Shown: in pieces, positions 33,578-49,742 of the stretch
How positions within the stretch are numbered: position 1 is the first letter of the stretch
Layout of the letters: each line of letters starts with the position of its first letter
NCBI RefSeq assembly: GCF_021375795.1
Contig: NZ_JAEIOI010000003.1
Coordinates: 62,001-126,000, forward strand
Direction of reading: 5' to 3'
DNA length: 64,000 nucleotides
From: Pseudomonas anguilliseptica
Lineage (GTDB): Bacteria > Pseudomonadota > Gammaproteobacteria > Pseudomonadales > Pseudomonadaceae
The notes under the pieces: model-generated
Seen by the model: only the letters and a program-made list of their open reading frames with translations
What the model was told of the DNA's origin: nothing
The model's database searches: none
Made by a program: the position numbers and the translations under genes

Positions 33578-35041
33578 TTATCCAATCTCGAACAAATCCA
33601 GCTGCTCAGCCTGATGCTCATCCTCATCAGAACCGTCGAGCAGACGACTCAGCGCCGCATCGAAAGCCTCCATGGTCGGGCGCATCTGAGGCAGTTTAGC
33701 CTCAGGGTTATTGCGATAGTGCGTAACGACAACACCCGTTTGCCCGTGTGACTGCAACGCGTCACTCTCGAAATCCTTGATACCGTTACGCTGCATGAAC
33801 TGTGTGCATGTGCGACGAATATCACGTGGGCTGAATTTTGGGATGGGCTGGCTGTTCATTTTGGCGTGGTCAGTAGCGAGCCACTCGCTCACCGCATGAG
33901 ACAAACTGGACGCGTGAATCGGCTTTTGCCCACCAACACTCCAGGGATATAAGGCCCCTGGGGACTGCAAGGCACGAACCTGTTCAAGTATCTGCACGGC
34001 CCTGTTGCTTAAGGGAACGAAGTGAGCACGCTTTTTACTACCGCGCCCTTTGCTATCTATGATCTTCAAGTACTTCTTTTGAAGGTTGTAGCTGGTCCAG
34101 GGCTCACGGATAAACTGGAGGGGACGCTGCCCTGCAGTAGCAAAAGCAAAGTGAAAGACACGCGCCATAATCGCACCAACCGAATCGACCTTGGTGATGG
34201 TGTACCAAAATTGCTTAAGTTCCTTATCAGTGAGGGCGCGCTCGCCAGGTTTTGACGTGTTCGGGACAGTCACTGGATCCGCAGGATTCATCTGAAGTCC
34301 GTAGCTTTTAGTACTGCTTCGGTCGATATGATGCTCAGCTTTCAGACCGAAATTGAAAGCAGCCACGAGAAACGAACGAACCTTGCCCGCCTGACGCCTA
34401 GCTCCCCTGTCCCATATTGGTTTCAGCAGAAGATTCACATGCTCCGGCCTGACATCCTTGGCCTTCATATTCATGATGTTGAGCCGTTCCTCTCGGCCTT
34501 CCTCGCTCACGGCTACAACTTTCTCGCCTTCCAGATCCTTAGACAGCACACGCTCAAACTCCTTGATCTGCGCAGCTGAAACACCATCACGGCGACGGTC
34601 TTCGATGTAATCCCGGAACAATTCAGACAAAGTGCCTTTTGAAGCCTCTATTGCAGCAAGTCGCTGCTGCTCATGCAGCTGGCGCTGGCGCTCGGCTTGC
34701 TCGACCTCTTCCTCGGCAGCACATCTGGCTAGGTAAGCCTTAATGTCGCCATGCTCTGCCGCGATCTTTGCGTAACGTACCGCTTGCTCGCGAAGTTCAG
34801 TAAGTGAGAGACCGGGGCTCTTGGGTGTTTTCTTGAAGACCCCTAGCTTGATCTTCTGGCCCCCGCCATCGCGGCGGCGGTAGTACCCTTCAACAGCTCC
34901 TGAAGCACGGCACTCGAACAAGATTGATCCACTACCTCGGCCTGGCAGTGAATCGGTGGCAGTCTGACCAGGCTTAAGCGCCTTCAGCTCCACATCTGTC
35001 AGAAATTTCCTACTACTCGCCTTGCCCGATGCCTCTGCCAT
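33578..35041 (-). CDS. int: Tyrosine-recombinase integrase of the island
   Basis: 487 residues from MAEASGKASSRKF at 35041; the frame is open to 35110, and a GTG there behind AAGGGG is an alternative start. The N-terminal region (about 1-130) is the DUF4102-type arm-binding part with GSILFECRASG and YYRRRDGGGQKIKLGVF. A core-binding domain follows. The catalytic domain has Arg in ATAGQRP, IRR in SPRDIRRT (Arg where many family members have His), His in SHGQTGVV and the nucleophile Tyr in THYRNN. It starts about 150 bases from the tRNA-Met fragment at which the island is inserted. Confidence 0.92.
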   Translation of the reverse strand: MAEASGKASSRKFLTDVELKALKPGQTATDSLPGRGSGSILFECRASGAVEGYYRRRDGGGQKIKLGVFKKTPKSPGLSLTELREQAVRYAKIAAEHGDIKAYLARCAAEEEVEQAERQRQLHEQQRLAAIEASKGTLSELFRDYIEDRRRDGVSAAQIKEFERVLSKDLEGEKVVAVSEEGREERLNIMNMKAKDVRPEHVNLLLKPIWDRGARRQAGKVRSFLVAAFNFGLKAEHHIDRSSTKSYGLQMNPADPVTVPNTSKPGERALTDKELKQFWYTITKVDSVGAIMARVFHFAFATAGQRPLQFIREPWTSYNLQKKYLKIIDSKGRGSKKRAHFVPLSNRAVQILEQVRALQSPGALYPWSVGGQKPIHASSLSHAVSEWLATDHAKMNSQPIPKFSPRDIRRTCTQFMQRNGIKDFESDALQSHGQTGVVVTHYRNNPEAKLPQMRPTMEAFDAALSRLLDGSDEDEHQAEQLDLFEIG

Positions 35042-35193
35042 TTCTGCGTACCGTTTTGCGTACCGTTTCTTAGGGCATGACCGGCCATACCCAGAACCAA
35101 GGGGAAACACCTAACCCCTTGAATTTAGGATAACGCGCTAAATCGGCTTTTTTCGGGAGACGCTGGGAAACGACCAGAAACGTGCTTTTTACT

Positions 35194-45653: not shown

Positions 45654-45727
45654 GGGGAAATCCTTATCAGCATGCAGGAGAGAAACAGATGGTAGCGGAA
45701 AATCCTATTGCGAGAGCTACCCAGCTG

Positions 45728-47214
45728 CTACAGGCCCTGCAACAGCGTCAGAATGGCCTGTGGCCGCTGATTGGCCTGTGCCAGCATCGACGTTGCAGCC
45801 TGCTGTAGGATCTGTCGGCGGACCAATTCCGACACTTCTGCGGCGTAGTCAGTATCTCTAATTCGACTTCGTGCTGCACTGAGGTTTTCAGCGCTATTGG
45901 CCAGGTTGACGATGGTGTACTCGAGGCGATTTTGTACTGCGCCAAGATCTGCTCGGGCACTGTCAATCAAACTCAGCGCGCCATCAATCACGCCGATTGC
46001 AAGTTGCGCGTCGATATCCGTGAGCAGGTTGATATCGCTCAGTGTTTCAAGACTGCTGAAGTTTCGCACCGTACTGCCATCAACAGTGAGGCCATTCACT
46101 TCGGTACTAAACGAATTGCTGCTGCTCAAACGCACCACACCAATTGCCCTGACAGACGAGTCGTCATTGAGCGTTGCTACCGCACTCGTCAATTCGCTCT
46201 CCCCGCTATAGTCGAACGCTTGGATCACTGCGCTACCATTTTCCTCCGAGAGAAAGCTCTCAAGCACAATGTCGTCGCCCGCTTCGCTGACCAACCACAA
46301 CTTGCCCTCCTCAATTCGCGCGCTGATACCGGTAGTATTTTTTTCAGCATTGATCGCCCATGCCAGCTCCCCCAAATCGCCATATTCCACCTTGCCCCGA
46401 ATGTTCACAGCATCCGTATTGGCTCCGTAGAGTTCAAAGTTGTAAGTGTCGTCTTCGCTGAAGCTCAACTGCACAAGCGTGCGGGCGTCCGCAGTGACGC
46501 CGGAGACTTCGGAGCGTTTATTGATACTTTCGGCAATCGATTTGGCCGTTCCCTGAACGGTAAAACTGACCGTGGAGCGCCCGTAAATAGTCAGTTCACC
46601 ACTTACCTCGTTGTCCGCAACATCGCCATTCTGCTCCAGCAACCCACCCAACTGATCAAGACCCAACGACCCAATCGAACCATTGACCAGGTCGCGAGTA
46701 TTGGTGCCTAAACGATTTACTCCATAGTTACCAAGGTTGACGGCAATGGTTTCAAACGCCTCGGCACCGACCTGTAACGACCTGGAACCATAACTGCCAT
46801 CAAGCAGCTTGCGCCCGGCAAAACTGGTGGTTTCAGCAATACGCCCCAGCTCTTGCTGCAACTGCGAAACTTCCTGCTGTAGTGCGCTGCGCTCATTGAT
46901 CGAGTTGGAACCATTGCTGGCCTGCAGCGCCAGATCGCGCAGGCGCTGCAGAATAGATGTGGATTGCTGCAGCGCACCTTCGGCTGTCTGAGCCAATGAA
47001 ATGCCATCGTTGGCGTTACGGATGGCAACCTGCATACCACTGATCTGACTGCTCAGCCGGTTAGATATCTGCAATCCGGCCGCATCATCCTTGGCGCTGT
47101 TGATGCGATACCCGTAGATAGGCGCTGCATCGACGTTTCCAACGCGCGCGTAGTCTCATTCAGGCTGCGCTGAATGCTAAGCGATGAAACGTTGGTATTA
47201 AGCGTCAGCGCCAT
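45728..47214 (-). pseudogene. Flagellin with an N-terminal frameshift
   Basis: The true start is the ATG at 47214: [20 protein letters not shown] and SMQRLSTG are the standard flagellin opening. At about 47108-47115 one base is missing in a GGG run, and the rest ([23 protein letters not shown]...) is read one frame over to 45728. The N-terminal D0/D1 ([22 protein letters not shown]), a long variable D2/D3 centre and C-terminal D1/D0 ([18 protein letters not shown]...[15 protein letters not shown]) are all present. No other flagellar gene is nearby, so this is an orphan flagellin. As written, it could not be made; a homopolymer error would restore it. Confidence 0.85.
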
Positions 47215-47391
47215 TCAGCGGCCCTTTGACGAATGCAACTCCCTTTTACCGCTCCCACCCTGGATTAACGGCTATCTCAATACAACGGCAGCAGACGCAC
47301 TTTCTTGAGCGCGACCCCATTTAAAACTTCATACCTCGTACTGATTCCGCCCTGTAGATCAGATCAATAGCGACAAAAAACACCTGACAAA

Positions 47392-48911: not shown

Positions 48912-49319
48912 ATGAGCATGATCCCCGCAGGCTTTAGCCCGCTATTCAGAAGCAGCCCTTTCCTTGATTTGCTCGGGCCGATCTACAACCAGCGCAGCGC
49001 CACGGGCCTGGTGATTGGTCTGCGTGCCGAGGAGAAACACTGCAATGCGCGCGGCCTGGTGCATGGCGGTGTACTCAGCAGCCTGGCCGATGTGGCCCTG
49101 GGCTATAACAGCGCTTTCGCCGAAGAGCCACCAACCCCGCTGGTCACCAGCAGCCTGACCATCGATTACGCCGGCACCGCCAAACTCGGCGACTGGATCA
49201 ACATCGAAACCGATGTGCAGAAGGTCGGCAAAAGCCTGGCGTTTGCCAATTGCTATTTTGTCGTCGAGTCGGTGCGTATTGCTCGGGCGAGCGCGGTATT
49301 CAGTGTACTTTCGCGCTGA
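48912..49319 (+). CDS. PaaI-like hotdog-fold thioesterase
   Basis: 135 residues of a single hotdog domain: EEKHCNARGLVHGGVLSSLADVALGY contains the HGG motif and the following Asp used in catalysis, and TSSLTIDYAGTAKLGDWI the second half. It should hydrolyse acyl- or aryl-CoA thioesters as a homotetramer or dimer. GAGG precedes the ATG. Last gene of the TetR-hydrolase-thioesterase operon. Its 3' side runs into a cluster of GGA-loop hairpins. Confidence 0.87.
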   Translation: MSMIPAGFSPLFRSSPFLDLLGPIYNQRSATGLVIGLRAEEKHCNARGLVHGGVLSSLADVALGYNSAFAEEPPTPLVTSSLTIDYAGTAKLGDWINIETDVQKVGKSLAFANCYFVVESVRIARASAVFSVLSR

Positions 49320-49370: not shown

Positions 49371-49539
49371 AGGGGTGAAGCGCATGGATGCGCTGAGCAT
49401 AAAAAATCATCTGGAATGATTTTTAACATCGCGCAGCGATGGCCCGAAGGGTGGCTGCCATGGATGGCAAGCCACAAAAACGTCGGGAGCGTTTTTGCGC
49501 GCAGCCCCGAAGGGGTGAAGCACATGGATGTGCTGAACA
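49371..49539 (+). repeat. Cluster of GGA-loop hairpins flanked by 29-bp direct repeats
   Basis: Read on the plus strand the stretch folds into successive hairpins: AGCGC-ATGGAT-GCGCT (49379-49394), AAAAATCAT-CTGGA-ATGATTTTT (49402-49424), CATCG-CGCAG-CGATG (49427-49441), TGCC-ATGGAT-GGCA (49456-49469), CAAAAACG-TCGGGAG-CGTTTTTG (49475-49497), CCCC-GAA-GGGG (49505-49515) and AGCAC-ATGGAT-GTGCT (49519-49534). Five loops contain GGA. The first and last hairpins sit in near-identical 29-base direct repeats (49371-49399 and 49511-49539). It would form the 3' untranslated region of the thioesterase operon. There is no coding frame. Confidence 0.75.
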
Positions 49540-49540
49540 C

Positions 49541-49668
49541 AAAAAAGAAAACCCCGCGATTGCGGGGCCTTTGCAGACTGTGTGCTGACATCCTTGATCT
49601 GCTTGCCATCCTGGCAGCTGTTCCGCGTATCCCTGTTGCTAAAGTGCGCTTCCTGCGCGACGTCCATG
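49541..49668 (-). ncRNA. Rsm-like regulatory RNA (RsmA/CsrA-sequestering)
   Basis: On the minus strand a GacA-type upstream activating site (49725-49742) is followed by a -10-like TAATCT (49675-49680) and then about 125 bases without coding sense. The RNA would contain at least six GGA motifs, several in hairpin loops: GCGC-AGGA-AGCGC, TGCC-AGGA-TGGCA, and further GGGA, GGAA and AAGGAT sites. It ends in CCCCGC-AATC-GCGGGG and a T-rich run (49541-49567). This is the layout of rsmX/rsmY/rsmZ in Pseudomonas. The 5' end is estimated from the -10 only, and which rsm gene it is cannot be decided here. Confidence 0.8.
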
Positions 49669-49724
49669 GGCAGCAGATTAGCCACCGCCCGGCATTCGGC
49701 ATAGTGGCGATCTGCAGTACGCGG

Positions 49725-49742
49725 TGTAAGCCATGGCTTACA
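49725..49742. promoter_or_regulatory. GacA upstream activating sequence
   Basis: TGTAAGCCATGGCTTACA is a perfect 18-bp palindrome that fits the GacA consensus TGTAAGN6CTTACA. It lies about 57 bases upstream of the inferred start of the Rsm-like RNA. Being symmetrical, it could also serve the nuclease-like gene on the other side. Confidence 0.85.

Follow-up and report, generated by a model that had tools for sequence, protein, structure and literature searches.

The question raised by this locus is whether the minus strand at 49541-49742 of the 64,000-nucleotide stretch of Pseudomonas anguilliseptica DNA analysed here (the window) holds a gene for an Rsm-type regulatory RNA, and which of the known Rsm RNAs it would be. 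The earlier note had proposed an rsmX/Y/Z-like gene and had named an Rfam covariance-model search as a check. The whole window was scanned with cmscan, and one match above any family gathering score was obtained. This match was RsmY (RF00195), with a score of 93.5 bits where the family's gathering score is 57, and it covered the model in full length. Because the full-length match lies well above the gathering score, the locus is identified as rsmY, and this is the decisive point. From its sequence we hold it to be almost certainly a genuine RsmY orthologue. Thus the Rsm-type reading was confirmed and narrowed to rsmY. The gene was said to be invisible to annotation, which holds for annotation by open reading frames only, whereas an Rfam scan detects it directly.

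The RNAs rsmX, rsmY and rsmZ all carry a GacA palindrome, GGA motifs and a terminator and belong to one Rfam clan, which would allow the locus to be read as rsmX or rsmZ instead. However, the within-clan comparison returned RsmY as the best match at 49548-49667, and RsmZ was found elsewhere in the genome, at G000:C1:1251978-1252110 (116.8 bits), with a GacA palindrome 180 bases upstream. The flanking genes of this second locus are, as we take it from their translations, rpoS and fdxA; neither the presumed rpoS/fdxA site nor the best clan match supports RsmZ membership for the gene in the window. The same two genes are named around rsmZ in PMC4353343. PrrB/RsmZ (RF00166) shares with rsmY the clan, the kind of upstream palindrome and the inferred job, but is a separate gene in this genome. 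RsmX (RF02144), of the same clan and logic, went unmatched in this genome at E <= 0.001, with 150 of 805 candidates scored and, in a second search, 51 of 765. The same RsmX search was above cut-off in 39 of 59 genomes of the genus. It is therefore extremely unlikely that the locus is rsmX or rsmZ rather than rsmY. The coordinates of the rsmY elements and of their surroundings are collected in the table.

Features at and around the rsmY locus (window positions unless a contig is given)
Feature	Position	Strand	Basis or remark
GacA upstream activating palindrome, TGTAAG-N6-CTTACA, perfect	49725..49742	-	sequence reading, pattern scans, consensus in PMC4950607
-10-like box TAATCT	49675..49680	-	7 bases before the predicted 5' end; read directly, promoter comparison
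RsmY small RNA body, six GGA	49548..49667	-	Rfam RF00195, model 1-121/121
rsmY intrinsic terminator	49541..49571	-	stem 49571-49548, loop AATC, then T-run; terminator scan and folding
Three units of a dispersed repeat	49371..49546	.	begin at the rsmY terminator T-run; outside rsmY
Divergent neighbour, endonuclease I-like protein, 218 aa	49856..50512	+	Pfam PF04231, E 9.2e-23; start 49856 inferred
Convergent neighbour, 4HBT thioesterase-like protein	48912..49319	+	Pfam PF03061, E 8e-13
Other places of the dispersed repeat	G000:C1:1603709, C12:231330, C12:566019, C21:296009, C23:32672

The palindrome reads TGTAAGCCATGGCTTACA on the minus strand (49742-49725). It was the sole match in the window at up to one mismatch, and 100 shuffles of the window gave a mean of 0.06 matches. 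The whole assembly (4,038,619 bases) contained two perfect GacA palindromes, one before rsmY and the other before rsmZ, and a control pattern read backward had no match in it. In the genus sample, at least one exact palindrome was present in 49 of 59 genomes, and the control matched in five of the 59. A chance palindrome was rejected on the window shuffles, the assembly counts and the control pattern. From the 5' base of the palindrome (49742) to the predicted 5' end of the RNA (49667) there are 75 bases. This agrees with P. aeruginosa rsmY, for which PMC4950607 gives the palindrome consensus and the position at -75.

Downstream of the palindrome, the linker to the RNA start is 57 bases long and contains the TAATCT box. 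Either TAATCT or TACTCT stood at the -10 place in most rsmY promoters compared, and the box was also present in the consensus built from the 57 of 70 promoters with equal spacing. A generic sigma-70 scan found no -35/-10 pair where 0.4 were expected; this fits an activator-dependent promoter and proves nothing. Within the linker, a conserved TCGCCACT block was seen at -43 to -36 in 38 equal-spacing loci with the endonuclease I-like gene (37 distinct). In the window it occupies 49703-49710, between the palindrome and the -10 box, and it keeps the same place in L044-L084. The block is possibly the site of a second regulator.

The RNA body carries GGA motifs with their first G at 49665, 49653, 49632, 49624, 49611 and 49593. 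Six or more GGA in 120 nt were reached by 4 of 2000 dinucleotide shuffles and by 342 of 5000 mononucleotide shuffles, and because of the latter the GGA count alone is weak evidence. Two of the six lie in predicted hairpin loops, GCGC-AGGAA-GCGC and GCCA-GGA-UGGC. The predicted fold was modestly more stable than that of shuffled sequences (z -1.30; 22 of 200 shuffles folded at least as well). The terminator is GC-rich, and its T-runs reach down to about 49541. A perfect 18-bp palindrome, a -10-like box, a non-coding body with at least six GGA, GGA in hairpin loops and a strong terminator had all been claimed before; each was recovered here, and the limits 49541-49742 proposed for the gene fit the elements found.

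The distribution of RsmY was tested in 57 sampled genomes of the genus and the order. RsmY was above cut-off in 35 of 36 genomes of the same genus (the own genome included) and in none of the 21 others of the order. Three of these 21 had weak RsmY matches only, and 18 had none at E <= 0.001. For the comparison of the gene itself, loci were chosen by the exact GCGCAGGAAGCGC core, which 70 of 77 loci hold (L017, L021, L022, L027, L031, L040 and L085 were dropped); merging identical sequences leaves 60 distinct RNAs. When 260 bases upstream were searched, the best palindrome was perfect in 53 of the 70 loci, with one mismatch in 16 and two mismatches in one. The spacing from palindrome to core was 65 bases in four loci, 66 in 57 and 67 in nine. 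GGA sites 1, 2, 3, 5 and 6 were kept in place in 60, 60, 59, 58 and 59 of the 60 RNAs, respectively, where site 2 and the GCGC hairpin are invariant by construction, as the loci were chosen by that core. The fourth site (49624) was in register in a single RNA, with some GGA within four columns in all 60. Compared with RsmY elsewhere, the gene is alike in its full-length match, its multiple GGA motifs and its intrinsic terminator, and differs in this shifted fourth GGA. GGA is thus conserved in place at five of six sites (58-60 of 60 RNAs). A two-sided change was seen in three of 21 consensus base pairs (in 12, 7 and 1 of the 60 sequences), counted with no correction for relatedness; the covariation is slight. 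Since covariation is slight and fold stability modest, sequence and context carry the identification more than structure does.

The protein of the divergent neighbour reached only 62.3 bits against the NCBIfam deoxyribonuclease I model, far under the cut-off of 372, and is called endonuclease I-like here. A contig search with this protein gave 42 loci, with P. peli, P. guineae, P. mendocina, P. oleovorans, P. alcaliphila, P. fluvialis and P. thermotolerans among the species. In 41 of these, the rsmY core and an upstream palindrome with zero to two mismatches stood beside the endonuclease I-like gene, and all 41 are gammaproteobacterial or Pseudomonas records. The lone exception was an alphaproteobacterial MAG with 34% identity. 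By comparison, the gene was seen at two of 34 rsmY loci of the wider genus sample (L033 and L043), where the flanks available measured about 1.5 kb at 30 loci (shorter at L022) and 5 kb at the remaining four. Because of these two counts, we regard the pairing as a trait and landmark of this clade. The earlier statement that the neighbours do not decide the rsm type therefore holds only in part: the endonuclease I-like gene goes with rsmY in nearly all loci reached through that gene, but was seen at few rsmY loci of the wider genus sample within these flanks. The rsmY regions of other strains have the regulators pqqH, cynR3 and dnr according to a figure legend of PMC4353343, whereas here the endonuclease I-like gene is found.

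The divergent gene on the other side of the palindrome raises the alternative that GacA controls the nuclease directly, through a palindrome that serves this gene as well as, or more than, rsmY. The pairing in 41 of 42 loci would suit this, as would the position of the palindrome, 113 bases before the inferred ATG of the nuclease. The spacing speaks against it. The distance from the palindrome to rsmY is near-fixed, at 65-67 bases in all of the 70 loci, whereas the distance to the nuclease start ranged from 92 to 213 bases in 39 of 41 loci (L080 and L084 were set aside, as their matches start inside the protein). We consider direct control of the nuclease quite improbable and assign the palindrome to rsmY.

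The same loci bear on the state of the gene. The score of 93.5 bits is the third lowest of the 35 RsmY matches above cut-off, 30 of which score 100.7-133.9, as a decayed or silent relic of rsmY might. However, the palindrome, the -10 box, the terminator and the GGA sites are intact. When 14 of the 42 endonuclease I-like loci were scanned with cmscan, RsmY was above the gathering score in all 14, and these sister loci scored similarly (84.5-112.6 bits). There is practically no chance that the locus is a relic, and rsmY here is a gene of an already known kind, a textbook gene. It adds one more well-supported rsmY and leaves the understanding of the Gac/Rsm pathway unchanged. For the species, each of the terms 'Pseudomonas anguilliseptica' and 'rsmY' occurs once in PMC3922812.

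Genes for the partners RsmA and GacA were sought in the assembly, and both were found. The former is represented by a single CsrA/RsmA gene (NCBIfam CsrA, 117.6 bits, cut-off 73); it adjoins a tRNA-Ser gene on one side and, on the other, presumably lysC, judging by the translation. The GacA gene is present (NCBIfam UvrY/SirA/GacA, 319.4 bits, cut-off 280), with 92% identity to a GacA query sequence, and is followed by what we take from its translation to be uvrC. Apparently this is a pseudomonad with a small Gac/Rsm set of one CsrA-family protein, RsmY and RsmZ, with rsmX not detected. Among 17 genomes examined of the 42 reached via endonuclease I-like loci, seven had rsmX above cut-off; its presence is therefore patchy.

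In the Gac/Rsm cascade, as described in PMC7366521 and PMC4950607, GacA acts at the palindrome and RsmY then titrates RsmA. By analogy with this known pathway we infer transcription of rsmY, GacA dependence and RsmA sequestration for the gene whose identity, anatomy, conservation and partner genes are described above. Phosphorylated GacA would bind the palindrome 75 bases upstream of rsmY and would activate a promoter that has a -10 box but lacks a recognisable -35 box. The transcript, about 120-127 nt long, would start at about 49667 and stop at the intrinsic terminator. Through its GGA motifs it would bind several copies of RsmA, the sole member of the CsrA family found in the assembly, and pull RsmA off target mRNAs, and RsmZ from the second locus would share in the titration.

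Further rsm-like copies were also considered. Four weak RsmY matches were obtained (25.9-26.8 bits), none at the gathering score of RsmX, RsmY or RsmZ. These scores are noise, because two distant control genomes also match below cut-off. One match reads the rsmY terminator and the repeat array on their opposite strand (plus strand, 49460-49571, 26.8 bits, gathering score 57). Another, L003, fell at a terminator next to a copy of the dispersed repeat, downstream of a gene of cold-shock type (Rfam cspA, 65.5 bits, gathering score 78 not reached); the repeat there overlaps a weak rsmX match as well (33.1 bits, gathering score 56). The remaining two, L004 and L005, fell at terminators at apparent gene ends. 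A search for plasmid copies of the rsmY locus gave no match.

The repeat beside rsmY is the only odd feature of the locus. A unit consists of a CATCCATG hairpin with a varying stem, a CACCC-TTCGGG-like stretch and a closing AAAAAT...ATTTTT hairpin. The genome contained nine exact matches to CATCCATGNNNNNCACCC, against none for the control. By eye, eight of them were real repeat units at six places, and the ninth lay in apparent coding sequence; at five of the six places the unit came directly after a T-run hairpin. In ten near relatives (L044-L053), inspection by eye of 170 bases beside rsmY showed the repeat present in six and absent in four. We take the repeat to be a small element, linked to terminators, that is mobile or recombines. 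Read on the plus strand, the array would give successive hairpins whose loops are AUGGAU, CUGGA and GGGAG and whose stems vary among units. Should transcription from the convergent thioesterase gene reach it, the array might act as a second, opposite-strand RsmA decoy, which we hold to be very improbable. At two other rsmY loci, of P. indoloxydans (L062) and a P. mendocina strain (L063), the sequence past the terminator starts with GTGCGCCCAGC. This looks like the 5' start of a putative group II intron of the kind that targets terminators.

Two observations concern the rest of the window. A flagellin-family gene (Flagellin_N and Flagellin_C) lies at 45728-47074 on the minus strand and drops out of five near-relative DNA alignments (L044-L048), which stop near 45702-45706 and resume near 47372-47389. 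By these alignments the gene appears to have been gained here or replaced. Positions 1-35110 carry what we take to be metal-transporting P-type ATPases, an RND efflux set, a multicopper oxidase-like protein and two-component genes, and these are followed at 33578-35110 by a gene that is, from its translation, presumably integrase-like. This content suggests a metal-resistance island.
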